NCBI GenBank assembly: GCA_963681505.1
Contig: OY811988.1
Coordinates: 5,632,739-5,696,738, forward strand
DNA: 64,000 nt
Source of the DNA: Eunapius fragilis
Taxonomy: Eukaryota; Porifera; Demospongiae; Spongillida; Spongillidae
Direction: 5' to 3'
The notes below the pieces were generated by a model, which was given only the letters and a program-made list of their open reading frames with translations, did not search any database and was not told the origin of the DNA. Position numbers and translations under genes: made by a program. Of the stretch, positions 1-54,562 are shown in pieces; the stretch's first letter is position 1; every line of letters begins with the position of its first letter.

Positions 1-1532
1 AGGGATGTACTTATGGGCACATCTGAGGTTAGAAGGGATGTACTTATGGGCACATCTGGAGTTAGAAGGGATCTACGTATGGCCACATCTGGGGTTAGAA
101 GGGATGTACTTATGGCCACATCTGGGGTTAGAAGGGATGCACTTATGGCCACATCTGGAGTTAGAAGGGATCTACGTATGGTCACATCTGGGGTTAGAAG
201 GGATGTACTTATGGCCACATCTGGGGTTAGAAGGGATGCACTTATGGCCACATCTGGGGTTAGAAGGGATGTACTTATGGCCACATCTGGGGTTAGAAGG
301 GATGTACTTATAGCCACATCTGGGGTTAGAAGGGATGTACTTATGGCCACATCTGGGGTTAGAAGGGATGTACTTATGGTCACATCTGAGGTTAGAAGGG
401 ATGCACTTATGGCCACATCTGGGGTTAGAAGGGATGTACTTATGGCCACATCTGGGATTAGAAGGGATGTACTTATGGGCACATCTGAGGTTAGAAGGGA
501 TGTACTTATGGCCACATCTGGGGTTAGAAGGGATGTACTTATGGCCACATCTGGGGTTAGAAGGGATGTACTTATGGCCACATCTGGGGTTAGAAGGGAT
601 CTACGTATGGCCACATCTGGGGTTAGAAGGGATGTACTTATGGCCACATCTGGGGTTAGAAGGGATGTACTTATGGCCACATCTGGGGTTAGAAGGGATG
701 TGTACTTATGGTCACATCTGAGGTTGGAAGGGATGTACTTATGGCCACATCTGGGGTTAGAAGGGATGTACTTATGGTCACATCTGGGGTTAGAAGGGAT
801 GCACTTATGGTCACATCTGGGGTTAGAAGGGATGTACTTATGGTCACATCTGAGGTTAGAAGAGATGCACTTATGGCCACATCTGGGGTTAGAAGGGATG
901 TACTTATGGCCACATCTGGGGTTAGAAGGGATGTACTTATAGCCACATCTGGGGTTAGAAGGGATATACTTATGGCCACATCTGGGGTTAGAAGGGATGT
1001 ACTTATGGTCACATCTGAGGTTAGAAGGGATGCACTTATGGCCACATCTGGGGTTAGAAGGGATGTACTTATGGCCACATCTGGGATTAGAAGGGATGTA
1101 CTTATGGGCACATCTGAGGTTAGAAGGGATGTACTTATGGCCACATCTGGGGTTAGAAGGGATGTACTTATGGCCACATCTGGGGTTAGAAGGGATGTAC
1201 TTATGGCCACATCTGGGGTTAGAAGGGATGTACTTATGGCCACATCTGGAGTTAGAAGGGATCTATGTATGGCCACATCTGGGGTTAGAAGGGATGTACT
1301 TATGGCCACATCTGGGGTTAGAAGGGATGTACTTATGGCCACATCTGGGGTTAGAAGGGATGTGTACTTATGGTCACATCTGAGGTTAGAAGGGATGTAC
1401 TTATGGCCACATCTGGGGTTAGAAGGGATGTACTTATGGTCACATCTGGGGTTAGAAGGGATGCACTTATGGTCACATCTGGGGTTAGAAGGGATGTACT
1501 TATGGCCACATCTGAGGTTAGAAGGGATGTTA
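1..1532. repeat. 33-bp minisatellite in alpha1 intron 12
   Basis: About 46 head-to-tail units of 33 bp (aagggatgtacttatggcca then catctggggttag), running off the left edge. Variants (ggtcac, gggcac, ctgaggtt, ctgggatt) recur in the same order about 663 bp apart, with the odd unit gggatgtgtac at about 697 and 1360, which shows a higher-order duplication. Read on the minus strand each unit holds CTAACCCCAG followed by ATGTGGCC, the 3' splice junction of an integrin alpha propeller exon; the matching real junction is visible in the alpha2 copy at 29841. Long ORFs across the array only reflect a stop-free unit with a period divisible by three. Confidence 0.95.
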
Positions 1533-1790
1533 GCAGTCACATAACAATGTAATAGCATCTTGCTTTCTGTAGCTATTACACAAAGAACTATGCTACTAGG
1601 CTTCTAGTTTATATACATATACAATGTACACAATTCATCTCTACAATACACCCCTACAATCTCTACAATGCACCCCTAAAATACACCTCTATACTACACC
1701 CCTGTAATCTCTACAATACACCCCTACAATACACCTCTATACTACACCTCTATAATGCACACCTAGAATACATCTCTACAATGCACACAC
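1533..1790. repeat. Degenerate 12-15 bp repeat in alpha1 intron 12
   Basis: The part from about 1630 is made of loosely repeated ctacaatacacccct / ctctacaatgcaccc units. The rest is unremarkable intron sequence. No exon or RNA gene is apparent. Confidence 0.6.
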
Positions 1791-4292
1791 CTTCCAGGCC
1801 ATCTCCATTGATGTCCCCAAGGTTGGCCATGGCATAACCAAACCTCCCATAGCTGTCGCCATTTCCAAGCAGCTTGCTCACAAACTGAAGACTTTTCCCC
1901 TACATGGATGAGTTGCAAAGCACCAGGCAACACAAATGATAACTGCAGCCAACAAAAGCACAATAGCCATAACGTGATTTCCATTCGGCATCCATGCATT
2001 AGGATCACAAAGAATGTAAGTAATGGATGTAGTAATGGATGCTTTAGGCCCTGCCACATGGGCAAACACCACCTCCAATGTGTAGGCCTATCTTAGGCTT
2101 CGCCAATGCACCAATTACAGCCATTAAAGGTACTCATACAACATCCTCTACAGCCATTATAGCTACACATACAAAACTCTGTACAGCCATTATATCTACA
2201 CACTTACTGCATTATTTCTGTAAACGTAAACCCTTCCAGCCTCAGGGTTTTGAACAGGTGAGTAGTTAGGTGCCCCCACCAGTACCTCATCATACCTGCA
2301 TGGGGAACCCTACAGTACTGAATGGTGGTCATCACTAAACACACCAACATACCCATCTCCATTGAGGTCTGCTGTGATGATTGAAAACCCATAGTACTCC
2401 GACAGCTGGAGGGAGAACAAGTGTGTGTGTTTTTATTAACTGTGGACATGGGGTAGGTAAAAGTAATAATGCACATTTAATTGGTGTAAGAAAAAAAAAA
2501 GGCTAGTGTGACATTTTTCAGTACATATGTTTATAAAAATGTTCACACCACATTCTCATCATTTCTTCCTTTCTTTCCTCTTAACCCTCCCTTCAATTTA
2601 TCCCATCTCTTATCCCTCCTTCCCATCTCCTCCTCCTCCTCCTCCTCCTCCTCCTCCTCCTCCTCCTCCTCCCTCTTCCCCTCCCCTACCTGTGTTCCCT
2701 GCAGTGATTGTGAGACAACAGACACCGTGGCTGAGTTCATCACCAGGTTGACCTGTTAGGGAGAGGTACTAATGAATAACAATGACCATCTCAGTGCACA
2801 CTCACCACTCCCATATCATTAACCCTCGGAGCAGAGACCAAAAAATCTAATTGAAGAAGCCACAAAATTTCAAGAATGAGTGGAGGGGGGGGGAGGGGTG
2901 TGGGCACATGGCATGCATTTGATGACAAATACAAGACCACATCACGTATGCTTTTGCATTATCAGTAGCTCATGCCTGCTAAACCCACAAGTATACCTTC
3001 AGTAGTTTTCTGAAGGATGCGACCACTGGCCACTGCATATCCTTGGAAACCATTTTCAATTGTTCCAGCCCCAGAGGTTGTGCTTTGAAATGTGGTAGTC
3101 CCTGCAGTCGCTCTAAATATTCGACCTAAAGATGGCATAAGAGGCATAAGGATTATCTTAATATAGCAGAAAACCATAACTCCTTCCCCTTCTATTCCTT
3201 TTCCCGTCTGTCCCTTCCCTCCCACCTTTCCCTCCATTCCTCCTATTTCTTTTCCCTCCTCTCCCCTTCTCCACTTACCACTCCAGCGACTGGCTCCAGG
3301 TGCTCCAATAGCAGTGAATGCACCTCCTGTTGTGTTCTATGATGACATCATGGACAGTATCACTACAGATAGCACATGTACACACACAACACTTACACCA
3401 ACAGATGCACCAGCACCAGCCTGACACAAGTCACCTGAAAGTTAGTGAAGATATGTTACATTTTTTAAGTACCCAGCACCAACCCAATGTTCCACAGCTA
3501 AATTGTAAGTCTTCTTGTCTTACCCTACTGAGCCATGCCAACTAAATGTTTTATGAATATGGTCTGGGCCTTTGCATCAACGTGCATGAATGTGATCACT
3601 GTATACTTTAAAGCTGGCACGAGTTGATACAACTCTACGTACGATAAGTGCCCCCTCTAGTATACATCTGACCATTAATAATGAGCAAAGTACTCCACTA
3701 TATTGAGCACTTACTGCTTGAGGCACACGGTTCATATGCCTTGAAACCTATCAGGCTGCTGTCTGATATGAAGCAGCGACCATTGGGAGTGTACTGAGGC
3801 TTGAAGTACCTGTGTCCACAGATCTGATGGGGAAGGTGGAGGGGTGTGGGAGGGGGTGGGGTGGGGTGGGGTGGGGTGTGGGGAAGACAGTTCAACTTCA
3901 AAGAACCTTCTTTCCCTGTTTGCAATACACTGCAGTGACTGCACCTCTGTTACTTGAACTTTGTGACCACCCTTACGAACATACTAACCTCATATAGCCA
4001 TGCCCTGTATGCTCACACATTGATCACACAACTGTTGCACTCCACATCGGCCTGCATTTCACATGGCCAGCCACAATCAAATCAGAACTAATCTGCCCCA
4101 CCGCCTGATACTCCCACTGGCATACTACTACATAAGGTCAACCCATAAAATGTCATCCATCTTCATGCACACATCCAAAGTGCATACTTACCACAACCAA
4201 ACCTCTCCTGCTGATAACCGTTCCACCTAAGAACTGCCCACTTTTCTGCTCACCCACAGTGTTTGCTGTCAGGGATGTTGTGTGTGTGTGTG

Positions 4293-4340
<48 letters not shown>

Positions 4341-7300
4341 GTGTGTGTGTGATGTGTGCAAATATATATATATATATATATAATAATTATATATATAATT
4401 ATGTATAATTATATATATAATTTTTTCAAGGTTTATTATTACTGATTATAATTTTTATTATTGGAGTACAAGAATAAATATTTAGGAGGAGAAACAACAT
4501 GCATGAATTATTTATAAATCATGCTAAGATGGGAGCCACCTGGAAAGGATTTGCCCTCACCAGATGCAAGTTGAGCCTGCTATACAGTTCAGACAGCACA
4601 ACTGACTTTGGTTTGCCCGATATGATGGCAAGACGGGAGGCAAGCATCTTAAACGAGCCCGTGGTATAATAATAATAATAATGATTAAAGCTGGTCTTTG
4701 TCACACTTTTAAAATATGTATCACGTGGTTGGTATACCCACAACGGACCCGTGCGGTACGGTTTAATTAACATATTTGGTGCCGTTTACCAACCGATATG
4801 AACACTGAATCGATCGATAATGAAATATGCAAATTAGTTTCTGAGACAAAAAGCATGGATATTAGAGGTATATCCATGCAAAAAGGACTAAAATCGGGAG
4901 TCGCACGACCGAATCGTGAAAGTTGAAGGGGTCAAATCTTACTCAGAGACCAAGGCCACGGTGAAAATAGGACTGCATGACAACGAGAAATTAAAATGGG
5001 CACGAGCATTTTTTTTTTCTAAAGGCACGATGTTACGACACGAGACCACATCTACCTCTTTCAAAGAGCAGTAGAAATTAAAATGACGCAGCAGATTGTT
5101 GTATCAAGCTGTCAGTGGTATCACGAGAACTGGCAAGCACGCATATTGTGTCCGTACATCCCTCCTACGAGACCGACATACATGCTGCAGCATTATACGG
5201 TGAAGGTACAGTAGAGATATAACTACAGCATTCATGCAGGTAGCTGAGTTAAAGTTAGATACATGTATAGTAGTGGCTCGCACATCAGGAAACTGCTGTT
5301 GCCATAGATACCAATGTAACGGTATGGGTATGAGAATGGGAGGAGTAGGACAAGGATAAGGAGGGGAGGAGACGAAAGGGGAGGAGGAGAGGGGGCATGG
5401 ACAAAAAGCTTCGCAATCGTTTTGTACACCGATGAGGCTGGAATCAGAATTAAAATATACATGTATATTATTTACATTCTGATGTTAGTGGAACAAGCAG
5501 ATACACTATGCAGCATGTGTGGTGGTACGGACAGGCTATTATGGCCCCCTCCCCTCCCCCTTCACCAAGCGAGCATTTATTAGAGTAATCTATCATTGGG
5601 TGTGGATCAGATAGAAACCAATGTAAAAGTGGCGCCTGAAAGCACCTTAACTGGGTCACTATTTGTCCCCAAAATCTTCACGACAACACACACTTTTTAT
5701 CATACATTCTGTTAGTTGGATACTTTTAGAACGGTTTTAGAGCACAACAAGAGTTGTATCCCCCTTTTTTAGTTCGTTATAATCAATGGAATATTTTAAT
5801 TAGCACAAATTTTGTAATATTATATTTAGCGCATTAAAAAAAATTGTGTACAAGTCTATGGAGTATCATATTTTCTAAAATGGTCTCCAGAATTTTGGAC
5901 GATACATGATACAAAATTTGAAATCTAAACATGATTTAGAGTAGTTTTAGTGCATAGCAAAAGCCGTAACTCAACTAATTAATTAAAATGTAAAAACGCT
6001 ATACATTTTCTATGGAGCGTGCCGCGGAAAGAATCCGAAAAAATTACAAACCGCAACTTTCGTGACCGTTCATTTCTCCACATGTGTGGAAAAAATTGAG
6101 TTAGATTGCAATGAAGAAAACTATATACATATGCATTTACCTGAAATTGAATCATGGATTGGGGAATAGTGGAGGAAGTATTGAAAAGAACTAGGTGAGT
6201 TATAGAATCAGCATGATAGCATGCATAAATCATGCAAATGAACACACTCAATAACAAAAAAAAAAAAGATAACCAGTTCGCGCGCATGTAACAGGGTCGT
6301 GTGGTTTTTTTTTTTTTTAAAACTTTAAACATTGTTAAAAATTGGCAAAGGTCGAATAAATAACGATGAAGCAGTTTAAACTTGCGGGGTGCAAGAGATG
6401 TGAATCAACTTAGCATCAAGAGCGGTCCCAACAGATATGGATTTGCTATGTACACTGACAGCTCACTTTAAATTCGGGTGAACGTAGTCATGTTTCCTGA
6501 TGTACAGACATTTTAATATCCTGATGTACGAGCCGCTACTGTAGCCAGGAAATAAAAACATTCTCTAAAGTTCGATAGATACGACATCGGAAGGCATGCA
6601 GTGTGAAAAGAAGAATTTCAATATAGGGCGTCAATAATTATGTCCTTCCTTTTAACACTTTCATCATTGCCGTGCATGCAATATGCAATCCTGTATATAA
6701 TATTCACGTATCCAGCGAACTGAATTTGGTACAACTGCCATTCCTCAAAACTGTCAAGCTATAAAAAATGGGACTGAGTACGAGAAGTTGGCACGAGCAG
6801 TTTAAAAGCGCGCGGGTTTTGACATCAAATGACGTAGAAATGAACTGTTCGTTTTGCTTCATTTACCGGCTGAAGTCGCGTTCTCGAGTGAAGAATGATG
6901 TCACCAAGAGCACCTTATACCCCAACAGTAGGCATGCATTCAGTAGATACGAAACACCCATGGCGCGCCATGAGATTCTTTTGTAAAGCATGCAGCTGCA
7001 ATTGAGCATCCCGCATACTATACGGCTTACCGCTCGTGTCGTACAGCAGACCGTCCGTAGTTGAGCTGGATCTTGTGAATGCCGTCAGACCAGAGCACGT
7101 GCCAGGACTTAATGGACACACGTACACCAGCCCAGTATTTTTCAGTGCCGAGCCCGGAGCCGTTCCGTTTGGAGCTCCTATTACAACCCTGTGTAGGAGC
7201 AAATGAGGTTATAATTCTGTATGAAATTATGTGCATGCACATGCACCGTCACAAAATTTTTTTTGTATAGTCCCTAAGGCTTGAAGCCTGTTAGTTTAGA

Positions 7301-8659
7301 TAAAAACCGGTTGTAAGAGGTCATTAAAATTTTAAAAAAAACCAGCCGGTTAAGGTGATTGTTTAAAAAATAACCGGTTGGTTGAGGTTGTTCGTTTTAA
7401 AATAACCGGTTATTTCCGGTTTAACAATTATTATCGATTATTTATGCATAATCAAAAGCTAAACTAGTTGGGCGTAGCCCGACCTTCGCGTATTGGCGGA
7501 AGGTCGGGTACCAAACCTGTACAGTTTTTTTACAAGCTGCAACGGGGATTGCAGTCCAATCAGAATGCAGCATTTCAATGCGGGCCCAATAAATACATAG
7601 TACGCTTAATTTATACAATTATTCATTGATCCCGATTGTATAACACGAGCGTGTTATACTATCGGGATTAATGAATAATTGTATAAATTAAGTGTACATC
7701 AGATTGGCTTTACTACCAGCTGCGCAGAATATATTTATTGGGTGCCCTCATTGAAATTTTGATGATGACGACGAGGCAGGTACATCACAAATCAATATTG
7801 ACGTTGTTCGCTCTCGCCCGCTTATAGTTTTCTCGTGCCCATGCAGCATTAAGACGTGTACATGCATGGCGTTCCTCTATAAAATCAACCGGTCGGTTGT
7901 GGTTGCTAGCAACCGGTTGAAGCGGTTATTGAGCTGAAATAGAACCGGTTGAGGCGGTTGTTTGATCCACGCGATTGGTTAACTGGAGCTCCGGCGCAAC
8001 CTGTTTCAAGCGCCTTAATTGGTCACACATATTTCTCGCAATTTGCATGGGGCTGTCGTCAAGGCTTCGGATTTTCTGGCGACAAATCGTTCAGGTGTAC
8101 GTGCTATCATTCTTATCTTACTAGATTAATCGGTTGTACGCTATCGGTGGGATGAGTTAGCACGACTCATTGAATGGTCATGCACTACTCCCCCCCCCCC
8201 CCCCCTCCCACGTCCTCCGCGCCTCCATTCCAAAAAGCAACACTGAATATAGGAGTGCATGCATGGGGGGCGCGTATGCACACGCACACACATGCACTCA
8301 CACACAATATGCGGTGCAGAAATGGCACTACATGCATGTATATGCCGCACGCATGAGTCGCGCAAAGTTTTTACGAACCTATAAAAAATAAATAAATATA
8401 TATATGTAGCTATCACGGCGAACGCATCAACGCTCCATAATCGGACCGCACTGCAAAACAACTATCTAGTTAGTGCATCTTACACCGGAGCAGTAGGCGT
8501 TCTGTGCAGAGCAACGCTGTACCCGAAGTAGTCCGTATTCGTTAGGTCCGGGGACGTCCGTATGATCGGCTGCTTCGTGTCGATGGTCTGAGCCATGACG
8601 CAAGCGACCATCAGAAAGAAGGCACACAGGACGGCGAGAGGCTTCGTAGGTGGCAGCAT
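1791..8659 (-). CDS. Integrin alpha subunit, copy 1 (5' part, 12 exons)
   Basis: Minus-strand gene whose 3' part lies beyond the left edge. Exons in transcript order: 8484-8659, 7031-7188, 4192-4265, 3715-3823, 3397-3434, 3279-3336, 2997-3125, 2806-2846, 2690-2752, 2353-2405, 2208-2295, 1791-1899. Each is bounded by GT-AG and the phases join without stops (about 365 codons). The start is the ATG at 8659, followed by a hydrophobic signal peptide (AVLCAFFLMVACVMA). Then come FG-GAP propeller blades: FGYSVALHR, VVVIGAPNGTAPGS, the Cys loop CGHRYFKPQYTP and CQAG, AIGAPGASRWSG, GYAVASGR, DFLVSAPRVND, then DLNGDGYDEVLVGAP and DINGDGLE with calcium-binding loops. No I domain is inserted. In known integrins this propeller binds the beta I-like domain to make the ligand site. 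The last donor (1790) leads into the 33 bp array. Copy 1 is open throughout, so it looks functional as far as seen. Confidence 0.93.
4283..4425. repeat. (GT)n and (AT)n microsatellites
   Basis: About 80 bp of GT repeats followed by AT-rich palindromic sequence in alpha1 intron 2. The equivalent place in alpha2 (34475-34503) has a much shorter GT run. Confidence 0.9.
4519..4680 (-). mobile_element. Relic of a retroelement polyprotein C-terminus
   Basis: Minus-strand reading shows ASRLAIISGKPKSVVLSELY then SRLNLHLVRANPF, beside a short (TAA)n run. A related but stop-interrupted stretch lies at 23340-23530. From memory this resembles the conserved tail of pol-like proteins of invertebrate non-LTR-type elements; that family call is tentative. 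Confidence 0.45.
4690..7030. other. Alpha1 intron 2 remainder, no gene seen
   Basis: Mostly unique AT-rich intron sequence. Stretches at about 4710-5260 and 6590-7030 match alpha2 intron 2 (36060-36120, 37321-37460, 38890-39130 and 39190-39965), the matches in alpha2 being interrupted by insertions. The middle part (about 5280-6580) has no counterpart there and shows no recognisable coding potential. Confidence 0.6.
7276..8036. mobile_element. Non-autonomous insertion with AACCGGTT repeats (alpha1 intron 1)
   Basis: About 760 bp present in alpha1 intron 1 and absent from alpha2, where flanking sequences join near 40208 (gtacggtccc then acaatttgcatgg). It is rich in aaccggttg motifs near both ends (7300-7420 and 7890-7960), has weakly matching ends (TAAGGCTTGAAGCCTG against the reverse complement of the other end, TTAAGGCGCTTGAAACAGG) and no coding capacity. 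Subterminal short motifs of this kind are common in hAT-type elements; the superfamily is a guess. Confidence 0.55.
7606..7695. repeat. Near-perfect palindrome, ~45 bp arms
   Basis: The arm cgcttaatttatacaattat is repeated inverted as ataattgtataaattaagtg; the centre is gtgtta/taacac-like. It lies inside the 7276-8036 insertion. Confidence 0.85.
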
Positions 8660-8827
8660 CTAGTCCACGTAACGATTGCGAAAAAAAAAAAGAACACAGG
8701 AATACGAAGTCTGATTGAAACCTTCAAATTAAATCGACGTTCATGCGTGTTCAGGTGATATAATAGGGCGAATTTCCACAAAAAATTATTGAACGCGTTT
8801 CACGCGGATCTGTTAGAAAGGATCTAT
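8660..8827. promoter_or_regulatory. Putative bidirectional promoter, alpha1/beta1
   Basis: Only 168 bp separate the two divergent ATGs, so both 5' UTRs and the core promoters must lie here or overlap. Blocks shared with the second cassette (40810-41021) include acaggaatacgaagtctgat and gcggatctgttagaaagga, the latter just before the beta start. No clear TATA box was assigned. The promoter role is inferred from gene arrangement. Confidence 0.6.
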
Positions 8828-11800
8828 ATGTCGATTTGCTTGCATAAATGGGCGTTATTGTTAGTGACAGCATCCCTGTCCCTCCCTAGTAATGGTAAGT
8901 TGACCTCTGTTGTTTCTTGCGTGGCTATATATATATAGCATGCATGTGTGTATACATAACTCGATGGCTTCTCTCAGTGAATTTATGTGTTTACGTGCAT
9001 GTTAGCGTCGTGTGTATGCATGTGTGCTCGTGCCTGTGTGTGTATGCATGTGTGCTCGTGCCTGTGCGCGCGCTTTATATCATGCTTACAAAGCCCAGCA
9101 GCTCTGTAGTTCGCAAACATCCTGTAGCAGTTGTATCCAAGCATCGCCTTCATGCAGATGGTGCTCCGATCCGGTACGTTAGATCAGTTATTCGCGGGCT
9201 CCGCATTCCTCCCCGGCCCCTTATTCCTGAGTGTGTCCCGCGTTAATTGAACAAGTCCGGTGTGTGACTGTCGTAACATCTTCCACAGAGCTACTCTGGA
9301 TATAGGTGTTTCGCTTCCGACACCCCTACCGTCAACTGCAGCAATACTTACATACAGAACCCTATCGGCTCGAAGACCGCACAAACGATGGTAAGGACGT
9401 ATACATACATCCATGCAGACATGCAGCTATATATAATATGTGCATGCATTCTACATATGATTTTGCCTAAGGATGTACTGGGACCATCAGTCCAGATAAC
9501 GCCCAGTGTTGTCAACATCACGGTCAGACCTGGTGAGCTTATAAATTACATCCCTATAATTTTCCACATGTTCAGCTACTGTGGGTAATACTCGTTTAAT
9601 TTATTATATAATATATGGGAGTGTCCAGCAAAATCATCCTTCTGGGTAGTTTTTCAAGTTTTATTTTTCTTTTCTGTGAACTCCAAAGAGCTTCTGTCAA
9701 ATGGTTCTTACGCATCCTATCCGTCATAAAGTTATTGGGCACTGAAGTTTTAATTAGCCATACATTTCAATGCGAGCGTTACTTTTCTTTTGCTTGTCTG
9801 GCTGGAAAATTAGAAAAAGTATCAGAAGGGTGATTTTGCTGGACACTGTTCCAACCTCCGTATTGGGTGTACATGCCTCCACATTACATTGGGCGCCACA
9901 TTGGGTGTTTATGGTATGTATCTCAGCATTGGGTGACATGCCTCCACATTGGGTGTATATGCCTCCGCATTAGGTATGAATACCTCCGCAATACCTCCAA
10001 TTTGGGTATACCTCCGCGGGGTGGGGGTGGGTCACGTGCCATCCCCCTCCCCTTCAAGAATTTATGCGCAACATCAGCGCTATAATTGCATGTACGTCTC
10101 AAGAAATGTTCAAGCTATACAGAGCGTCTGGGGTTGAGCCCGCGGTGGCGCTGGAGGTCGCGCTCTTACGGTGGCCCTGGTGGTCGCACTCTCGACCTGT
10201 GAGCTTCGAGCGGTTATTGCATAGCGCTCAAGACGCAAATTCTGTTCCGCCCAAAGCAATGACGCAATTAGCGTTTCGACTGTAGGCAATCACGTGAATA
10301 CGCCTCAAACCAATGATGCCTCAAGGCGATAACGCAATTAGCCCTAGCGCAGCGTTTAGTCTCAAACCGAGTTAGACTCAAGGAGAACTATGGGATGGAT
10401 AACATAAATTACGTCATATACGTGCACGTGCGTGTTTACGGTGTCGTATGATGGAGAGACTGATTTGCAAGGTGCTTCGCAACGATCTGACGTACGATGA
10501 TAGGCGCTCGTTTTTTAGGGTAGATGTTTTCATCCTTGTACTGCGTTATTGGATGCAAAACAAGACAATCACACTCAAAGCCACTGAACAACCTAGAGAA
10601 ATGCATACTTCAGTGTCTTATTTTGCAATTACTATTCATGCCCTGGCCATAGAACTATCAGCAACAGTACAAAATTTCTGCTTGTTTTTGTTTATAAAAG
10701 CCATAATTGCAGTACAGTGGCGAAAGAAAAATAGCACCAACAAATCTACATTATAAGAGTAAAAAAGGACTTTCACGATCCGGATTTTCAATCGAATGTA
10801 AAAAAACAATAGCAATGACCGTACGCCGAACTGTACACGGCGCAATTTTTTTTTCCATGGTACTTCCATGATGTATTCAGGTTCCTGATCATGCTCAACA
10901 TCACAGTGTGTGTTAAATAGTGGGGCACGAGATAGTGTATCCCCTTGGTTTACACTACATGCCTGTACATACAACGTACCAATCCAGTACATGCAAGATA
11001 CCAGTCCAGGGTGAGGGGGGCGGGGCACCATTGAGGAGCAATGGGGAGCAGTATAAATTTCATGTTTAAAATAAATGGCTTATCTGCTCCCCAGACCAAT
11101 AGCTGTACAAATACCAGTTTCTTTCTCTACGTTCCAAACGGGACACCCACACAACTTCTATAGCGGTGACTGCGAGACGCAAGCAATTATCGGAAACGAT
11201 GTTTTTAATGACATTCACTATACGACATATAGAACCTGCTGTTCGATTGGGGACGTCGAGACACTCGAGATGGTGTGGGTCTGGGTACGAGACTGCCATA
11301 CGCGAGTACATACCCAGCGGGGGGGGGGGGGGGCGGGGATCCATGCCTAAGTCATTAGGGTCTCGGTGGGTGTAGTATAGCACCCCATGCTAGGTGGGGG
11401 GTAGTGGGGCTCAGTACAGTGGCCCTGGAGATGGCGCTCTCGACCTATGAGCTTCGAGCGGTTATTGCGTAGCGCAAACTCTGCTTGCACATGTGTTGTA
11501 AGTCTCTCCGCATGTGTTGTAAGCCTCTCCACATGTGTTGTAAGCCTCTCCACATGTGTTGTAAGCCTCTTCACATGTGTTGTAAGCCTCTCCACATGTG
11601 TTGTATGCCTCTCCACATGTGTTGTAAGCCTCTCCACATGTGTTGTAAGCCTCTCCACATGTGTTGTAAGCCTCTCCACATGTGTTGTATGCCTCTCCAT
11701 GCATACGTGTTGTAAGCCTGTGTTGTAAGCCTCTCCACATGTGTTGTAAGCCTCTCCATGCACACGTGTTGTAAGCCTCTCCACATGTGTTGTGAGCCTC

Positions 11801-20800: not shown

Positions 20801-21053
20801 AAGGGGAGGAGAGGGAAGGGGGAGGAGAGGGAAGGGGAGGAGAGGGAAGGGGAGGAGAGGGAAGGGGGAGGCAAACAGATACTCCTCTTTGTAATATATT
20901 TGCAAACCGCTGTAGAGTAGAGACCTTTCCTATACAGTTACAACTGCAGTAAAATATGCACAAGGCTAATGCAAATTCTTTCATGTGAGAAGACACTTTT
21001 GGTCTTTCATGTGAGAAGGCACTTTTGGCCCATGCAACAATGCATGCCTATTA

Positions 21054-21101
<48 letters not shown>

Positions 21102-24036: not shown

Positions 24037-24127
24037 TTAAAGACGGCCATCTGGAAGTGCATCATTCTGTGGCTCAAAATGATAGCTGTTTCCAGTAAAA
24101 TCAAAACCACTGTTAGCAGAATCATTA
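24037..24127 (-). pseudogene. Displaced ancestral alpha2 C-terminal tail segment
   Basis: Minus-strand reading DSANSGFDFTGNSYHFEPQN then DALPDGRL and stop at 24037. The same tail, contiguous with the membrane-proximal exon, is seen in the third relic (63049-63212). Here it is split from alpha2 exon 31 by about 1.6 kb of inserted sequence, so alpha2 now ends earlier, at 25740. Confidence 0.6.
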
Positions 24128-24131
24128 GTTT

Positions 24132-40809: not shown

Positions 40810-41021
40810 GTAGTCCACGCGTAAAGACTGCGAAAAAAAAAAGAAAAAACACAGGAATACGAAGTCTGATTGAAACCTTCAAATTGAATTTTTTTAAAAA
40901 GTTTATTCGACGTTCATGCGCGTTAAGGTGATATATATATATAATTTAATATACATATAGGGCAAATTTCCACATGCAAAAATTTATTTAACGTTTCTCG
41001 CGGATCTGTTAGAAAGGAGCT
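40810..41021. promoter_or_regulatory. Putative bidirectional promoter, alpha2/beta2
   Basis: 212 bp between divergent start codons. Same conserved blocks as 8660-8827 (acaggaatacgaagtctgat, gacgttcatgcg, gcggatctgttagaaagga), plus an AT-rich insertion (tatatatatataatttaata) not in cassette 1 that could alter expression. Confidence 0.6.
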
Positions 41022-42224
41022 ATGGCGAATTGCCCGCATAAATGGGTGTTTTTGTTAGTGACAGCATCCCTGTCCCTCCCTAGTAATGGTAAGTTGACCT
41101 CTGTTGTTTCTTGCGTGGCTATATATAGTTGTAGATGGCTTCTCTCAGCGAATTTATGTTTATGTTTGTGCGCCGCGTGTCTGCATGTGTGCGCGTGCCT
41201 GTGTGTCTGCATGTGTGTTTTGTGCGCGCGCGCTTTATACCATACACAGCCCAGCAGCTCTGTAGTTCGCAGACATCCTGTAGCAGTTGTATCCAAGCAG
41301 CGCCTTCATGCAGATGGTGCTCCGATCCGGTATGTTAGTGCGTTTATTCGCGGACTCCGCATTCTTCCCCGACCCCTAGTCTATTCCTGAGTGTGTCCCG
41401 CGTTGAAAAAGTCCCGGGTGACTTCATAACATCTTCCACAGAGCTACTCTGGATATAGGTGTTTCTCTTCCGACGCCCCTACCGTCAACTGCAGCAATAC
41501 TTACATACAGAACCCTATCGGCTCGAAGACCGCACAGTCGATGGTAAGGGACGTATACATACATCCAGACATGCAGGCTATAATATGTGCATGCCTTCTA
41601 TACATGATTTTGCTTAAGGATGAACTCGGACCATCAGTCCAGATAACGCCCAGTGTTGTCAACATCACGGTCAGACCTGGTGAGCTTGCATGTATATTCC
41701 ATCCCTATATAGTTTTCAAAATTTCAGTTGAAGTAATGTGTACAATGCAAATATATTAAACGACTGCATCACAATCAAAAGCACATCCCACACTTCGTGG
41801 ATGAAGCCCCGCAAATGGATACCCACACGTGCATTTATTCATCGCTCATTTGATAATAAACGCCCAGCGTATAACATCAACAGTGGTGTGCGCGTCCCTT
41901 CCGTGTGGGCATCTAGCATCCAAACATCCCCTTTCTGAAACACGCACTGCCCGATACTCTCATATATCCACAGCTAGAATGGAGCCTTATCAGGAACTAC
42001 GATAGTAGTTCCTATATAGGAATTGACCCGGGTCGTGAATATCATTTTTTTAAAACGCAACCAGCGTACAACTCGCGTACCAAGAAACGGATAGTTTAGC
42101 TCTTTGTTCCTATCGAGCCAGAAGGCAAAGACGGTCATTTTAATGTTTTGTTCCAGTCTTCAAACCGTTTGCTTTAAGAGAACAAAAAGTTCGTGTTTTA
42201 CCTCGTCCCCATGCCACATCTTCT

Positions 42225-42259
<35 letters not shown>

Positions 42260-45200: not shown

Positions 45201-48200
45201 TGCTATCTTGCGTGTTTATGATTCACGCCATGCCACCACTACTGAACATTGCACATGAAATCTATTACTTTTGGCTTTTTTCCAGAGTTTAACTCAGTGC
45301 ATTCCACTCCTGTAATCAATTTGCATGTGATAATTTCACCCCCCCCCCCCCCCCCCCCCCCCCATCCCCTCCCCTTCTCATGACGACACAAGCACACAAA
45401 TTGTTGTATGGTTGATAATGTAATGTACTTGTAATAACCAGGGTTGACCCTGTGACGCCAATTGTAAATGTGGTACAATCAAAACTGAACTGCACACTTC
45501 CCAAGAATCAGTGAAATTTTGCCAACAGCAGAAGTAGATTACTTATAGACTGCTGACCTTAACCTTCTTCAAACTGCTATGTCCTTATTATAATTTTGAA
45601 AGTTTCATGTAAGCAATGTTTATGAAGAATTTCAACAAGGAACTAGGACCTAACTGTCTTTGTATGTACTGGCCAAATGAAAATATCCAATTGAACATTT
45701 GAATTACACCATCACTACATAACTTGTGTTATATGTGGAATGTTATTTGTAGCTAACTTAAGTAAAGTGTGAAAATGTGTTCACACTTTACTTTTTTGCC
45801 CGTTTTCATCAGGTGAACATGATCTAAAGTAGTGAATCAAAATAGTAAAGTACTGCATCCCAATGGTGATAGTGGGTATCAAGGCCCATCTACTGCATCT
45901 TAGCTCATCTTTATTAGATGCTTGTGTATGGAGCACAGTTGCATCATTGGTACAGTGTGCACACCTGTGCACACTGTACTAGTAAATATACATACGTTCA
46001 ATGCTATGACAGGATTGTTTTGGACTATGACATCTAGAAAATATGTACATGTATCAGAGCGATGTTCCCTTCCCTAAGTCCTTGCCCATTTCATATCATC
46101 TACGTGGCTGCAGAGAATGGCATGTGTGCATGACACATTCAGCGCTTACAGCTGCATGGAAAGATGAGATGTTGGGGAGTAGCTACAAGCTAATGCATGA
46201 CAACCAGTGCGTTGTGCAGTATCCCTTCGCATAGCGAGCAACTCATACTTTCGCATGCATCCACCCTTTGTGGCTAATGCACCCCTTCAAACTCATCGTC
46301 CTTATCAGAAACAATGTGCTAATCTTGTTAAACTGCCCAACGATCATTCTCCATTCTCACTGGGTTCACTGACACTGCATGCTCTTGCACAGCCCTCTAT
46401 TTAATGGCATTCATCATTCACTCTCGTATAGGTTCCAATTTTTGTTGTTGCAATATCTGGGTTAGTACACACACCCACCATCATTTTCTGTACCTATCCT
46501 TGCTAGTCTGACATGTTGTCCCTGGCTGCTTCTATTGCAGCACCCTTCATTTTGATTCCTAGCTAGATACCACTAAAATGGCCACCATGCAGGGGTGCGC
46601 ATAAGCACATTGAGAGAGTCATAGTCCTTTCCTTAATAGAAAAAATCCATGAGAGTTTTTTTCTTTTTGAAGCCTACTGGAAATCGGCTTGGAAAGTTTA
46701 CATTTGTCCTGAACCATGAAGAAGATGAACTTTGATGGACTTTAAACCATACTTAAGTCTAGGTCAGAAGGCCTGGCTCCTCCCCTAAGGGTCCTGGATA
46801 GGATATGCTATGGGTTTTTTTTGAGCTAAAATTCATACCACACCCCTGAACCATATATATTTAAGGATACGCTAGCATAAGCGCCTATATACTGCCTGAG
46901 TGAGTATAATTAATAGCTATACCCAAATATGTGTATTTTATCATTGCTCACCCATCCACAAGTCTTTTCCTGCATAATATATAAAATTGAGGACCTCTGT
47001 TCATGAGGATAGAATAATACAGAGCTGCAGTAAAGTGCAAACACCTGTGCATACTGTGCGTGCAGTGTGCACAGGTGTTCACATGGATGCAGATAAACAA
47101 TATGATATGCCACATCTTTAGCAGACATGCAACAGGCATTTTGCTAGCATGAATATAATGATTGAAAAATGATCTTGATCTCTCTTCAGCTGATTGGTTG
47201 GCGTGACAACGCTCGTCATCTCCTCCTATATGATACTGATGCTGACTCCCATCAAGCTGGGGATGGAAAGGTGAGCATTAATTAGGAATGAGCTAGCCCC
47301 AAATCACTATTTATGTTTTGATTACTGTACCCACCCACTCACTGTACCCACCTCCCTGCAGCTGGGTGGAGTCGTTAAGCCCAACCCCCATGTGTGTCTA
47401 ATGAATGACACCTATGGCCTTCAGGATGTGGACTACACAGCATATGGCCTCTATGTGAGAACCAGACTATAACACAATATGTCATCCTGGTCATCATGAT
47501 TGCATTTCCCCTGGCTGAATTAGGATTATCCTTCTCTTGGTGACATCAGGGAACAGCTACGCATTAACAATGTCATCCCCATCTTTGCTGTGACATGGGA
47601 CCAATTCTCCCTTTACTCTGTGAGTATCAGTCGACCAGAGAACAGATCAAGGAAGGACCATTCTCTCAGATCTGAGTTCCAATTCATTCATCTCTGTGCC
47701 AATCCTATATATACACCCTCCTTTCTTTCCATATCGTGGATATGAGGGGAGGGGGGGGGGGGGGGGGGACAACAAGGTTTTGGCCCACCTCCCCCCTTTC
47801 AAAACGTTCTGCATCAGCCCTGTTATTGTACTGCTATTACCTTACATGGACATATTCCCCACCTCCTCCCCACTTTCTCAGGGCTATGCAGCAGAGCTGC
47901 AGTCAGTAGGAGCCACTACAGGCCAGCTGGCTGCTGATTCCAGCAACGTTGTAACTTTGATTAGAACAGCTTTCAATGTGAGACATGGTGCCTGTGGATG
48001 GTATCTATGGGGGAGGGAAGGGGAGGGTATCTATGGGAGGAGGAGCATCTATGGGGGTAGGGGTTGGAGTATATATGGGGGGAGGGGCTGGGTATCTATT
48101 TAACTATTGTCACCTTATGGTACCTTTCTTTCTTCTTCCCAGAGTGTCACGCAGAAGATTGTGTTTGACCCTGTGTTACCTCCCAGCATATCATCATTGA

Positions 48201-48476
48201 AGTTTATCCCTGTCAACTGCCCACAGTAAGCCTGAAAGACCACACTTTTTACTTGTTTAGCAAACAAGCAGATGGTACACGCTAACATATGGTAAAGCCT
48301 GAGGCTATAACTACGTAAATTAATACATGTGTCTGAGGACCCCTTTTTTACCTAAAATTGTAAGGTTGACAATACAAAAGCCTTAAAATATGATAACGAG
48401 ATGAAGGAAAGTCATATGCAGATTTTCCTGTTGATGGCTGTATTTTTGTCTTTGCTATGGCTTGGTGTGAATCACA

Positions 48477-48511
<35 letters not shown>

Positions 48512-51500
48512 CACACACACACGCTCACGCACACTCAGCAACACACACATGTACACACCCTCATACTCACACATTCACACACTGCAACACACGGAAACAC
48601 GGAAACACAAACTTGCATACATGTGTGATGGAAAGAAAAAGGGATTGGGGTTAAAGAGGGGAAATTGATATTTAAGCCACTGAACCTGTTCTGCTCTTCC
48701 AACACATCATCAATATTTCATGTATGCTCTAGTTCTGCCCAAAATGTGTTCACACATTTAGCGCTCTGTATCAAGTAAGCCATTTACCTCTCTCTCTTCC
48801 CCAGGCTTGAAAGTGATGGAATCACGTGCTCAGGTGTCCAGATTGAGCAGACCATCAACTTCACAGTGCAAGTCCAGCTGGCATCCTGCGCCACCAATCA
48901 GATCATGCAGTGAGTTCATGTGTGCTCTGAGTGTAAGTACAGAAACAGTAAACATAGCCACACACCCTGTGATACATGGTGGGAGTTGTTGCAGCAGTGA
49001 AATTCAGAGGGAGAGATAAGGTAGGATGGGGAGGAGAGATAAGGTAGGATGGGAGGAGGGATAAGGTAGGATGGGGAGGAGAGAAAAGGTAGGATGGGAG
49101 GAGGGATAAGGTAGGATGGGGAGGAGAGATAAGGTAGGATGGGGAGAAGAGATAAAGTAGGATGGGGAGGAGAGATAAGGTAGGATGGGGATGAGAGAAA
49201 AGGTAGGATGGGGAGAAGAGATAAGGTAGGATGGGGAGGAGAGATAAGGTTGGATGGGGAGGAGAGATAAGGTAGAATGGGGAGGAGGGATAAGGTTGGA
49301 TGGGGAGGAGAGAAGGTAGGATGGGGAGGAGGGATGGGAGAAGGGATAAGGTAGGTTGGGGAGGAGGGATAAGGTAGGATGGGGAGGAGAGATAAGGTAG
49401 GATGGGGAGGAGAGATAAGATAAGATGAGGAGGAGAGATAAGGTAGGAGGGATGGGAGGAGGGATAAGGTAGGTTGGGGAGGAGGGATAAGGTAGGATGG
49501 GGAGGAGAGATAAGGTTGGATGGGGAGGAGAGATAAGGTAGGATGGGGAGGAGAGATAAGGTAGGATGGGGAGGAGGGATGGGAGGAGGGATAAGGTAGG
49601 TTGGGGAGGAGGGATAAGGTAGGATGGGGAGGAGAGATAAGGTTGGATGGGGAGGAGAGATAAGGTAGGATGGGGAGGAGAGATAAGGTAGGATGGGGAG
49701 GAGGATAAAAATGGGAAAGTGACTAATGAAGCAAATAGTACTAGTAATTTTAGCAATTCAAACTTTAAGTCAGAGTGGAAGGGTCCTCACCTTCCATATC
49801 ATACTTTTATTAGACTTCATAGAATGGTTTTTAGACTTCATAGAATATTATGTAACATTTTTCTCCATATGTCCAGAATTCCAGTTCATGTTGTTGGCTT
49901 TGGAACATTCACCATCAATGTTCAGCCGATCTGTAGCTGTGGATGTGAAGCATCAACACCTGTAAGTACATTGGCATTGAAATGGTGCAACTAGTGTTCC
50001 ATTTAATGCCCACAGGCATCTAATCCTGCTGATTGCACCAATGGCAACGGGACTCTATCATGCGGCATTTGCAGCTGCAATCCTGGAAGGTTGGGGTGTG
50101 CATTAATTGGGATCAAATGTTACATCACAGAGGGTTTTTTTATTTTAAAGGTTTGGAAGCCAGTGTCAATGCAACAGTCAAGGTATTGGTCAAGAGTCCA
50201 GCACCAGTTGTCCGTAAGTAACCAATTGTATGTGCTTACATGTGACTTCATGCTACACAATGACCACATGATTAGTTGATCATGACATTTTAAAATTAAC
50301 ATTACTGCGTTATTTGAAGTTCTTGAATTAAACATTGATCATTGATATAATTTTATATAATTTTGCATGTTTAATATACTAAGTAGATTCTGCATTCCGT
50401 CGTGTATGATTCCCCTCACTCCTGTTCCACTATCCCTCTTCCCCAGGACTGGTCCTAACCAGCTGCAGTGCTCTGGACAGAGCAGAGGGACATGTGTGTG
50501 TGGGAAGTGTGAGTGTGCCACATTTCAGGTGAGATTATTAATGCAAAGCAAATATATAATTTTACTATTTTTTGATGGTATCTACATAGTCCTGTCTCAT
50601 AATTAGATTAGTGCTATTTAGAAAATATGTCGGAACAACTATTTCCTAACTAGGGCTAGTGGTGAGGCTTTGTGACATTATTTCAGCGCAAATTATGCGC
50701 AGTAGGGATTAAAATTTTGTGTTTATTTTAGTCTTGATGCATAATGAAAAACATATATTATATCATGTCACTATGGGTAGCTGTGATCATGTCACTATGG
50801 ACAGCTGTGATCATGTCACTATGGGCAGCTGTGATCATGTCACTATGGACAATTGTGATCACGTCACTATGGGCAGCTGTGATCATGTCACTATGGGCAG
50901 CTGTGATCATGTCACTATGGACAGCTGTGATCATGTCATTATGGACAGCTGTGATCATGTCATTATGGGCAGCTGTGATCATGTCACTATGGACAGCTGT
51001 GATCATGTCACTATGGACAGTTGTGATCATGTCACTATGGACAGCTGTGATCATGTCACTATGGGCAGCTGTGATCATGTCACTATGGACAGCTGTGATC
51101 ATGTCATTATGGGCAGCTGTGATCATGTCACTATGGACAGCTGTGATCATGTCACTATGGACAGCTGTGATCATGTCACTATGGGTAGCTGTCACACTTG
51201 TAATTACCATCTCCAGGACTCAAGGTTTGGCACCACCTCAACATACTTTGGTAGTGCCTGTGAGTGTGACAACTCTCGCTGTGACACAACCAATGGGCAG
51301 CTCTGTGGTGGGCCCAGTCAGGGCATATGTCAGTGTGGGGGCTGTCAGTGTCTGGGGTCCTTCTATGGCAGTGCTTGTCAGTGCTCCAACACATTCTGTG
51401 TGGACCCCAAAGATAGCCAGGTAGGGCACCCTGAGGAGGTGTGTATATGTATAAGAGAGGATGGGGTGGGGTGAAGAGGAAGAGAGGGAAGAGGAGGAGA

Positions 51501-54500
51501 GGGAAGGGTGAGGAGAGGGAAGAAGAGGAGAGGGAAGGGGAGGAGAGGGAAGAGGAGGAGGAGAGGGAAGAGGAGAAGAAAGGGTGAGAGAGGGATGAGG
51601 AGGAGGAGAGGGAAGAGGAGTAGAGAGGGGAGAGGAGGAGGAGAGGGAAGAGGAAGAGGAGGAGGAGAGGGAGCGAGAGGAGAGAGGTAAGAGGAGGAGG
51701 AGAGAGTAGGGGGGGGCATACAGGTACTCCTCTTTGTAATATATTTGCAAACCACTGTAGAGCAGAGACCTTTCCTATACAGTTACAACTGCAGTAAAGT
51801 ATGCACAAGGCTAATGCAATCACTTTCATTTGAGAAGACACTTTTGGTCCATGCAACAATGCATGCCTATTAACACACGCAAACATAAACATACACAAAC
51901 ACACACACACACACACACATGCACACACACATGCCCACACACACATACCTGCATATTTTAACCCTTTAATTTCCTCCACCCATCCCCTCAAAAAATAAAT
52001 CCCACAGGGGAGGGTATGCAATGGACGGGGGACCTGTTCCTGTAACCAATGCAGTGGCTGCCTCCCTCCCTTCACTGGTGTCTACTGCCAGAGCTGTCAG
52101 GCCACCACCCCTGGTGCCTGCGCTAGCTTCCTGTGCCAGCCCAACCTGGTCTGTGCTCAGTGTGCCCTGGGACTGCTCAACGCCACATCCCAGTGCACTT
52201 CATGTCCCAACCTCTTCCTCATCAACACCACAAGTACCACTGGCATTCAAGGTGTGCCAACATGGTTTTAGATTATTCATTACTAACCACAACCTTCCTG
52301 CTCCATATTTCTGCTCACATGCCAACACTATTCAACACACCCACATATCCACTCAACACATCAACACTTACACTTTTTATATCCCCCCCCCCCCCCTCCC
52401 TCCCAATGTATGGTGATGTAGGAGCTCTCACTGAGTGCCAGTTTACAGATTCCAAAGGATGCACATACATATACTATACAGTGGTGGACAATGCTGGTGT
52501 CTTGCTGTCTGTTTATGTGGTTTCAATTCCAGGTATATACCCCCACTGCTCTTCTAACTTCCTCCAACCCTTCACTCTACCACTTCTGACCTGTCTAATT
52601 CAATCCATCCCCAACCTATTCATTACTTCCTCCCCCCCACCCCCTCCCCCTCTCTCTCTCCTTCCCTCCCTCCCTCCCTCCCTCCCTTCCTCCCTCCCTC
52701 CCCCCCTCCCTCCCTCCCTCCCTCCCTCCCTCCCTCCCTCCCTCCCTCCCTCCCTCCCTCCCTCCACCAATTCCTTTCTCTCCCACACTAGTCTGCCCAG
52801 AGGTACTGAGTCCAGGTAGTATTGCTGCCATTGTGGTCACACCTCTGGTTGTCATTGCCATCGTTGGTATACTCATCCTTCTCTCGATTATGCTAATGTT
52901 CTATCTTCTGGTAAGTGGTTCAGCTATCCAGCTTATTATACTTATCGAACGAACTAAACAACATTGAATTGCTTCCAGAATCGAGCTGAGGTGCGAAGGT
53001 TTGAGAGAGAGTGTGCCAAAACCTCCTTTGCAAAGGTAAAACCCACTTCCTTCCTTTCTTGTATGTGTGTTCTTCTATCCAGTGTTTTCTCAAAATTGTA
53101 CCCTCCTTGGAAGTATATAATTCATTGATTGATGTTTGACTATTCAAAATTGCTTGTATTTGGTTGTGTTGCCTGTAGGGTGTGTAACCTTTTTTATAAA
53201 TCAAAATCGATTATTTCGACTATGAAAAGAAGTCCAATCGATTTTTATAGCAACTTGTAAATCGGTTATTAGAAACATTAAATCGATTTTGGCGATTAAT
53301 GCACTATTAAATTGCCAACTTTTTTCCAGGTTTGTCCTTTTTTAATAATGACACGATAAATCACAGTTTCTCAAGTCTAATACAAGTATAGCCAGTTTTA
53401 TTGCTTATCCGTTGCTTACGCCAACTTTAAATCATTAAAACAACAAAGATAGTACCCACAGGGACTGGGAACGATGTGCATGCCGGCGGATTGCTTTTTT
53501 TTTTTCACCGAAAAACACGTGGCTATTTGTTCGCCCGCTACCAACGCACTCAGTACTAAGTATGGGGACAAGTAAGGTTTTAGTTTTACTGAGATAAAAA
53601 CGAAAATGAATAGTTTGTCCACTCCGCAGCTTGCGCTCTTTTCTGGTACAAAATGTCTTAAACACGTACATCATGTATCATTCCCATCCGCCACAATTGG
53701 CAGTTATTATCCATTATTCGCCCTCAATATACAATTCAAGAAGTACTGAGCAGTACCAGCTAGAAACCTCATGGTGGAACACCGCTCCACGCATATGACA
53801 TACTTGGACACCTGTCACCTGTGCAAAGAGTACGTAGCGCGTTTGATTAATGCACATGTACAATACTGCAGAGAAAGTGCGAACGTATTTAAATTGCCGT
53901 GCCCACTGCGCGTATATTGAGGGAGGGCACTGATGGTTACCTTCAGCCGGGTCCTCAGACGTGCGACTAAGTATTGATTACATCATAATGATTCTTTTTA
54001 ACCTATTAATTAACCCGTTAGCTATATAGTATGCCTTTGTGCGAGGGCATATAAAAAGATTTGCTACCGATTTCTGCATATGAATATCGACTAATCTAAG
54101 AAAAACAGAATCGGTTATTTCGACTAAAGGAAATTCTGAAATCGATAACCTGCTATTCTACTAAGTGCATAGTCGACTGAATACATGTAGGTAGTCGCGA
54201 ATAATCGATTAAAACCTACAAAACCTGAAAATCGGTTACACACCCTAGTTGCCTGCGAGTTATTGGTGGACTAGACATGCTGAAAAAATTTGCTAAGCGA
54301 CCATTTCCAGGTGACTGACAGCAGATGATATGGCTAACCATTCAGTCCACGCTTATCAGCATGGCTCGTGAAATGGGTAGCAAACCGCATTCACTCACCA
54401 TTATGTCATTATCATTCTCAATGTCACATGACCATTACTCTGCTCTTCTTTCTTTTTTTTAACCCTCAGAATTCAAATCCCCTTTTCATTGCTGCCAGCA

Positions 54501-54562
54501 CTGACACAGTGAACCCTATATTTGATGATGGGCACACTACAGTTCAGGGTACTCGTATGTAG
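41022..54562 (+). CDS. Integrin beta subunit, copy 2 (24 exons, 800 aa)
   Basis: Exons: 41022-41088, 41250-41329, 41442-41543, 41619-41679, 44537-44668, 44779-44875, 44959-45046, 45103-45192, 47190-47270, 47362-47454, 47524-47619, 47882-47977, 48143-48225, 48805-48909, 49877-49961, 50016-50089, 50151-50213, 50447-50528, 51217-51420, 52008-52251, 52422-52532, 52792-52910, 52979-53035, 54470-54562. Every exon has the same length as in beta1 (2403 nt total). Same domains: PSI (CSSCIQAAPSCRWC), MIDAS DLSYS, GNQDGPEGGFDG, I-EGF repeats, membrane helix, NPLF/NPIF tail. I count about 40 replacements against beta1, eight of them in residues 175-191, the specificity-determining loop. A Cys of the I-EGF region (CNGCGTC in beta1) is Arg here (CNGRGTC). 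Introns carry several post-duplication insertions, the largest a hAT element in intron 23. Confidence 0.96.
41990..42365. repeat. Dispersed repeat, copy b (partner 37490-37870)
   Basis: Includes (CGT)n at about 42226-42260 and the shared blocks listed for copy a. In beta2 intron 4. Confidence 0.65.
42585..42609. repeat. Poly-G tract, beta2 intron 4
   Basis: About 19 consecutive G after ggtggggt, just upstream of a fold-back MITE. Confidence 0.95.
42660..42947. mobile_element. Fold-back MITE, ACAAGTAA family, copy 2
   Basis: Arms of about 125 bp: acaagtaaagaaaaacattc / aatgtttttctttacttgt, with a loop around 42800. Internal ggtggtgttaaaaggaaggg matches copies 1 and 3. Confidence 0.9.
43004..43241. 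mobile_element. MITE, TGTCCAGC family
   Basis: gggacggtgtccagcaaaat / attttgctggacactgttcc. First of three adjacent copies. Confidence 0.85.
43257..43459. mobile_element. MITE, TGTCCAGC family (internally shortened)
   Basis: gggacagtgtccagcaaaat / attttgctggacactgttcc; lacks part of the interior present in the others. 15 bp after the previous copy. Confidence 0.85.
43459..43658. mobile_element. MITE, TGTCCAGC family (inverted, one end missing)
   Basis: Starts at the interior block aggacaagcaaaagaaaagt and ends atcttgctagacactatccc. Fused directly to the preceding copy in the opposite orientation. Confidence 0.75.
43827..44097. mobile_element. Fold-back MITE, ACAAGTAA family, copy 3 (diverged)
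   Basis: acaagtaaagaagaacattc at the left, inverted partner gcttgtt at the right; arms less perfect than in the other copies, so probably older. Confidence 0.8.
45193..47189. other. Beta2 intron 8, enlarged
   Basis: 2.0 kb against 173 bp in beta1. Holds a poly-C run (45340-45363), hairpins near 45765-45795 (aaagtgtgaaaatgtgttca region) and 45948-45980 (gtacagtgtgcacacctgtg / inverse), another at 47035-47090, and the motif aggtgtgcacac-like in each. Probably one or two decayed insertions; no coding region recognised. Confidence 0.55.
47750..47769. repeat. Poly-G tract, beta2 intron 11
   Basis: Counterpart of the 17125 tract in beta1, about 18 G. Confidence 0.9.
48476..48615. repeat. (CA)n microsatellite, beta2 intron 13
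   Basis: Over 20 CA units followed by imperfect acaca-rich sequence; longer than in beta1. Confidence 0.95.
49018..49705. repeat. ~23-bp minisatellite, beta2 intron 14
   Basis: About 30 units of ggtaggatggggaggagaga plus taa. Beta1 has a single unit at the same place (about 18332-18352: tgtaggatggggagagagat), so the array arose after the duplication. Antisense ORF LISPPHPTLSLLP is a by-product. Confidence 0.95.
50763..51190. repeat. 24-bp minisatellite in beta2 intron 18
   Basis: About 18 units of the same ctgtgatcatgtcactatgg(g/a)cag family as beta1 (19475-20440), in the same intron. Confidence 0.95.
51470..51710. repeat. Purine-rich (gaggagagggaa)n, beta2 intron 19
   Basis: Long homopurine run in variable 12-18 bp units. 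Confidence 0.9.
52380..52397. repeat. Poly-C tract, beta2 intron 20
   Basis: Counterpart of the longer run in beta1 (about 21571-21589), near the exon 21 acceptor. Confidence 0.9.
52625..52766. repeat. (CCCT)n microsatellite, beta2 intron 21
   Basis: About 30 ccct units before the exon 22 acceptor; beta1 has only about three units (21858-21873). Confidence 0.95.
53176..54247. mobile_element. Non-autonomous hAT element in beta2 intron 23
   Basis: TIRs TAGGGTGTGTAACC / GGTTACACACCCTA flanked by a perfect 8 bp duplication gttgcctg (53168-53175 and 54248-54255). Beta1 has the single empty site ttgttgcctgcatg at about 22276. The 8 bp duplication and T/CAGGG start fit hAT. Subterminal aatcgatt motifs occur near both ends. 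No transposase reading remains in 1072 bp. Confidence 0.92.

Follow-up and report, generated by a model that had tools for sequence, protein, structure and literature searches.

A 64,000-bp stretch of the Eunapius fragilis genome (C18:5632739–5696738, the window hereafter; assembly of 219 Mb in 24 contigs) carries two tandem cassettes, each consisting of an integrin alpha gene and an integrin beta gene in divergent orientation. These are probably co-duplicated integrin heterodimer cassettes that have been amplified as a unit and are diversifying in ligand specificity. In the best-studied animals, the genes for integrin alpha and beta subunits are generally not neighbours, and partners are chosen after expression. 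Here, the whole pair appears to have been copied and the copies differ most at the ligand grip, so sponges may build a matched receptor set. In the proposed mechanism, the short interval of a divergent alpha/beta pair would serve as a two-way promoter, the pair would travel as a unit so that every duplication would give a balanced receptor, and a balanced receptor copy could subsequently acquire an altered ligand pocket in both of its subunits. Co-located divergent partner genes copied as a unit would offer a testable route to new heterodimer specificities without lost balance.

Genomic organization of the locus

The window contained no N and falls in a single contig (5616710–5706992) edged by 200-N gaps. 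Both cassettes lie in that contig, each with alpha on the (−) strand and beta on the (+) strand, and the distance between the two beta ATGs was 32,194 bp; the tandem repeat of about 32.2 kb and the divergent orientation described in the initial annotation were thus confirmed. In the first cassette, exons 1–12 of 31 of alpha1 occupy positions 1–8659 (−; ATG at 8659) and beta1 occupies 8828–22613 (+; 24 exons, 802 amino acids), as determined for alpha1 by a comparative gene model and for beta1 by a gene model, in both cases together with Pfam and PDB matches. The left edge of the window cuts alpha1, of which the stop codon lies at about −4583 and the full gene comprises 31 exons encoding 1070 amino acids. 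In the second cassette, gene models placed alpha2 at 25740–40809 (−; ATG at 40809; 31 exons, complete in the window) and beta2 at 41022–54562 (+; 24 exons, 802 amino acids), where the stop codon of beta2 ends at 54562.

The second cassette might be an assembly artefact, namely the other haplotype of the first, and the assembly does have one apparent case: a 15.2-kb segment with beta4 occurs at 5.53 and 6.00 Mb (C18:5520583–5535815 and 5990434–6005674), is 99.86% identical between the two places and ends at 200-N gaps. This pair is best read as an unmerged overlap of assembly contig ends, which is in line with one additional base in exon 2 of the 5.53-Mb copy that is absent from the 6.00-Mb copy, and cassette 4 was counted once despite the two places. 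In contrast, copies 1 and 2 share one gapless contig, differ in length and have dS values of 0.087 (alpha) and 0.074 (beta), and distinct third and fourth copies exist. An artefact is therefore very improbable, and the haplotype duplicate that had been considered in the initial annotation is not what the second cassette represents.

Relics of alpha genes could be detected by tblastn between beta1 and alpha2 (24153–24775, −; approximately residues 671–826 of alpha2) and between cassettes 2 and 3 (63159–63212, −; an alpha last exon). A direct repeat pairs 24132–24724, at the first relic, with 27329–27939. The window also contained a 603-amino-acid ORF at 60593–62401 (−), which matched the transposase domain model DDE_Tnp_1_7 (E=1.6e-41) and which we take to be piggyBac-like. 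Palindromes were present at 38589–38873 and 42660–42947 (approximately 285 bp) and at 55188–55291 (approximately 100 bp), with relatives elsewhere in the region; these are possibly foldback or MITE-type elements.

Gene structure and domain architecture

Exons were predicted by copy comparison based on codon conservation, splice sites and coding score, and some ends were corrected by hand. The exon-length agreement pointed out in the initial annotation was reproduced, as all 24 beta exons were equal in length between copies 1 and 2, together with 11 of the 12 alpha exons in the window, exon 12 having 109 vs 106 nt. Over the whole alpha gene, 28 of 31 exon lengths were equal between these copies, with exons 12, 25 and 27 off by 3 or 9 nt; compared to copy 1, 26 of 31 were equal in copy 3, and in copy 4, where 23 exons are visible, 21 were equal. 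Exon 23 of both alpha3 and alpha4 enters an assembly gap. Beta exon lengths were equal in 23 of 24 cases between copies 1 and 3, and beta4 differed in exon 1 (64 vs 67 nt) and in exon 24, where the stop codon comes earlier. Internal splice sites of beta1 and beta2 were AG/GT throughout, and copies 1 and 2 encode four complete proteins, each with a single, terminal stop.

The identification of the genes as integrin alpha and beta was borne out by PDB and Pfam matches. The beta1 protein matched integrin beta-1 (PDB 8oxz_Q; E=1.3e-133) in an alignment spanning residues 25–791, which included the PSI start, cysteine-rich I-EGF repeats, the beta tail and one transmembrane helix. Its beta-I (VWA) domain was recognized by PF00362 (E=2.3e-89), and the MIDAS motif DxSxS is present as DLSYS, invariant in the four copies. 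The Pfam models for the PSI domain (PF17205) and the tail (PF07965) gave no match in beta1 at E≤0.001, and PF18372 (I-EGF_1) scored 25.2 bits, under its cut-off of 26.1. The cytoplasmic tail of beta1 matched PF08725 (E=1.8e-9) and has two NPxY-like motifs, NPLF and NPIF; their counterparts in the integrin beta-1 alignment are NPIY and NPKY, with F replacing Y in the sponge protein.

The alpha1 protein matched integrin alpha-4 (PDB 9p95_A; E=1.2e-62), and its FG-GAP propeller and three Ig-like (thigh/calf) domains were above cut-off for PF01839, PF08441, PF20805 and PF20806. When profiles were searched against the whole genome, PF01839 had 6 matches, including 4 on C18, and PF08441 gave none, likewise none in 14 controls, which makes the PF08441 result uninformative. 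In alpha1, KKRQ forms a basic stretch, a hydrophobic segment is present, and IFIKRRK stands at the place where GFFKR, the usual membrane-proximal motif of integrin alpha subunits, is expected; IFIKR was found in alpha1, alpha2 and alpha3, which counts against the preferred reading of the locus.

Two introns contain tandem arrays. In alpha intron 12, a 33-bp repeat lies at 1–1530, 29819–31429, −197 to 0 and 77612–77999 (window coordinates). The unit contains the 3′ splice site and the first bases of exon 13, so intron 12 holds 45, 30, 9 and 19 acceptor-like copies in alpha1 to alpha4, respectively. A coding role of this repeat was considered and dropped, since read-through meets stop codons in three of the four copies, with alpha3 staying open. 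In beta intron 18, a 24-bp tandem repeat was observed in copies 1–3 (19466–20434, 50762–51192 and 90203–90950, window coordinates), and the stretches holding beta4 have a long array in steps of approximately 24 bp.

Additional cassettes and a diverged pair

Four cassettes could be located on this chromosome: the two in the window, one to the right and one, inverted, farther off. Cassette 3 lies outside the window at 71953–92692 (window coordinates) and has a gap inside alpha3, with the start interval and beta3 being free of N. At 1.8 kb beyond beta3, an alpha copy without most of the middle exons was found at 94516–97495 (+). In cassette 4, alpha4 is visible to exon 23, and the 3′ half of another alpha gene lies to the left of this cassette at 5516006–5518286 (+).

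A diverged head-to-head pair occurs on another contig, C1, with beta on the (−) strand, alpha on the (+) strand and 304 bp between starts, where start codons were assigned on the basis of signal-like sequence in open frames. The C1 beta was closest to EMCRGX_G012580 (51–82% by exon). The best match of the C1 alpha was P0006, which groups with Em0004g132a in a tree built without the C1 genes. As the C1 pair is also head-to-head, the layout is probably older than the tandem copies, and its occurrence in two diverged pairs of a single sponge raises the question of how old the arrangement is in animals. At three other beta-like loci (two on C20, one on C10), a search with 19 relatives against two 10-kb stretches and one 3.3-kb stretch revealed no convincing alpha; the outcome was the beta part of P0042 and one weak, stop-containing match on C20 (P0006, E=0.042). 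P0042 is a predicted protein of Dysidea avara in which an integrin alpha propeller is followed by a beta-I domain, and it either represents a genuine fusion or results from the merging of gene models.

Intervals between the start codons

The gene models reproduced the ATG distances of 168 and 212 bp given in the initial annotation for the window cassettes. The 168 bp separating the start codon of alpha1 from that of beta1 (8660–8827) represent the candidate shared promoter of cassette 1, and the 212-bp interval of cassette 2 lies at 40810–41021; cassettes 3 and 4 have 209 and 216 bp. With the C1 pair included, the start codons of five divergent pairs are 168–304 bp apart, and the definition of a bidirectional promoter (≤1 kb) concerns transcription starts. 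From this layout, the short interval may act as a bidirectional promoter shared by alpha and beta, and a cassette would then give balanced expression of the two subunits.

An alternative is that the genome is compact and the array arose by ordinary tandem duplication, in which case alpha and beta would be chance neighbours that were copied together, the layout would have no regulatory role and the pocket differences would reflect relaxed drift. In Amphimedon, 45% of the genes have the potential for a head-to-head arrangement, and sponges commonly have divergent genes at short distances (PMC4773876), which makes the spacing weak evidence when taken by itself; tandem clusters are also common in Ephydatia muelleri, as far as the available text of PMC7385117 describes. 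Most of the interval sequence was, moreover, unalignable between cassettes 1/2 and 3/4. The 8-mer GCGAATTT was common to the intervals of cassettes 1, 3 and 4, with one mismatch in copy 2, and this sharing was equalled in 1 of 60 shuffle sets, five word settings having been tried; longer or looser shared words in the cassette intervals gave nothing or weaker results, and the 8-mer is a weak candidate for a shared promoter motif. Against chance neighbourhood, four cassettes all have a spacing of 168–216 bp, and the diverged C1 pair shows the layout again. Together with the conservation of the beta-I domain outside the pocket loops described below, this makes ordinary duplication an unlikely account of the locus.

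Evolution of the copies

The dN/dS ratios (Nei-Gojobori, six pairs each) ranged from 0.28 to 0.40 for alpha and from 0.24 to 0.40 for beta, and purifying selection acts over both proteins. Copies 1 and 2 were the closest pair for both subunits. Nucleotide trees of the four copies had the same topology, (1,2)|(3,4), with support of 100 for alpha and 94 for beta (200 replicates each). The agreement of the alpha and beta trees points to pairs copied as units, though agreement alone is weak since four copies allow only three topologies; outgroup-rooted protein trees disagreed on the outermost copy, which was copy 4 for alpha (support 0.089) and copy 3 for beta (0.88). The alpha/beta pairs were probably duplicated as units.

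Identity between cassettes was 89–93% for alpha and 92–95% for beta, which makes cross-pairing plausible, and the subunits might mix freely between cassettes to give combinations. Such mixing is compatible with the co-duplicated cassettes favoured here, as it concerns the pairing step, and is a possible outcome that falls short of being probable: the agreement of the nucleotide trees and the changes in pocket loops on both sides both argue indirectly against it. Each alpha may pair mainly with its own beta.

Variation in the ligand pocket

When the copies are compared, the columns that vary most cluster in the ligand-pocket loops of both subunits. In beta1, the specificity-determining loop is encoded by exons 6–7 (15350–15590, +), where strong differences among beta paralogues were observed; in alpha1, copy comparison pointed to exons 6–7 (2997–3336, −), which encode the propeller loops aligned to Tyr187 and Lys213/Phe214 of alpha-4. 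The pN/pS ratio of alpha exon 7, pooled over six pairs, was 1.18.

For the beta-I domain, three pocket loops were defined, namely the specificity-determining loop, NQDxPEGG and FAVTxD (S/W/V/A), which together comprise 41 of 262 columns. Ten of the 14 variable columns fell in these loops, as did all five columns with at least three residues (Fisher p=7.6e-5). In the alpha propeller, where 73 of 426 columns were variable, four of the nine columns with at least three residues were located in three loops comprising 22 of the 426 columns (p=5.7e-4). Plain variable columns were not significantly enriched in the alpha loops (7 of 22 vs 66 of 404 elsewhere, p=0.063), a point in favour of ordinary duplication. 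The pN/pS values in the loops were 1.13 for alpha and 0.68 for beta, compared to 0.32 and 0.07 elsewhere, the loop sets having been drawn after the variable sites had been inspected. The strong conservation of the beta-I domain outside the loops (0.07) indicates that drift is not general, which speaks against relaxed drift as the source of the pocket differences.

Contact residues were mapped with numbering offsets assumed to be 33 and 20. The residues themselves came from an outside list of 11 alpha4/beta1 ligand contacts obtained by docking, as given in the available text of PMC10108353; 10 of the 11 letters agreed in the mapping, and L225, which lands on G, was still counted. Three of these 11 residues coincided with three-state columns (0.22 expected, p=0.001), and four with variable columns (1.18 expected), a modest enrichment (p=0.02). 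This test is less biased than the one based on loop sets. The positions of alpha-4 Tyr187, Lys213 and Phe214 are occupied in the copies by R/Y/S/S, E/Y/S/S and N/N/N/D, respectively, and that of beta-1 Ser227 by A/G/A/T. Among the alphas of E. muelleri, this triplet is variable as well (AEL twice, YYN, ADF and ASL). At the beta AVT site, S was present in all five E. muelleri cluster betas, several of these gene models lacking some exons, and the beta AVT variation is therefore not repeated there.

Based on these residues, the cassette copies may be receptors with different ligand preferences. A further step would be a cassette-based receptor repertoire, in which alpha, beta and the shared promoter are copied together and selection alters the pockets of both subunits in every copy, yielding matched receptors for adhesion or recognition, possibly of self/non-self or of microbes; this extension is tentative and rather doubtful.

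Comparison with other sponges and known systems

The closest relatives of the cassette genes were integrins of E. muelleri, with five alphas of 68–74% identity and five cluster betas of 64–80%. Several of these have adjacent gene numbers (alpha Em0002g211/beta g212, beta g215/alpha g216, beta g219/alpha g220, and alpha EMCRGX_G008287/beta G008288), where gene numbers alone give adjacency and not orientation. The alpha Em0002g208 had no adjacent-number beta among the 120 matches listed. Alpha and beta relatives share one longest-contig figure in Halichondria panicea (6,511,711) and in Geodia barretti (130,148), which suggests alpha/beta linkage in these sponges, and the two figures differ in Dysidea avara (37,586,944 vs 50,264,139).

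According to the available text on the E. muelleri genome, scaffolds 2 and 4 carry large clusters of integrin genes, and many clustered duplicates are identical in intron-exon structure (PMC7385117). The E. fragilis locus resembles these clusters in that the integrins are clustered, the duplicates share intron-exon structure, the E. muelleri genes are its nearest homologues and three alpha/beta pairs have adjacent gene numbers; alpha/beta pairing, orientation and shared promoters are not described in that part of the source (PMC7385117). In protein trees, the copies of E. muelleri are separated from those of E. fragilis, so expansion or homogenisation was separate. Vertebrate integrin beta genes are separately located according to the available text of PMC4030831. 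The novelty suggested in the initial annotation therefore has to be narrowed, as integrin clusters were already reported in E. muelleri (PMC7385117), and it would apply to the head-to-head alpha/beta cassette. No description of such cassettes was found in the titles and abstract openings among the open-licence matches listed, an absence that is no proof.

Human integrins include alpha-only gene clusters, and ITGA2B and ITGB3 lie on one chromosome arm, well apart; integrin genes are near each other in both cases, but they are not known to form repeated head-to-head pairs. The collagen IV genes COL4A1 and COL4A2 are likewise arranged head-to-head, encode partners of one complex and are divergently transcribed from a short shared promoter. 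They differ from the sponge cassettes in encoding unrelated proteins, and they are not known to form a tandem array with diversification at a ligand pocket. Neighbouring divergent genes that encode heterodimer partners with diversified recognition are also known from the fungal HD mating-type pairs and from HLA-DPA1/DPB1, which belong to other protein families than the sponge integrins, with their putative role in recognition.
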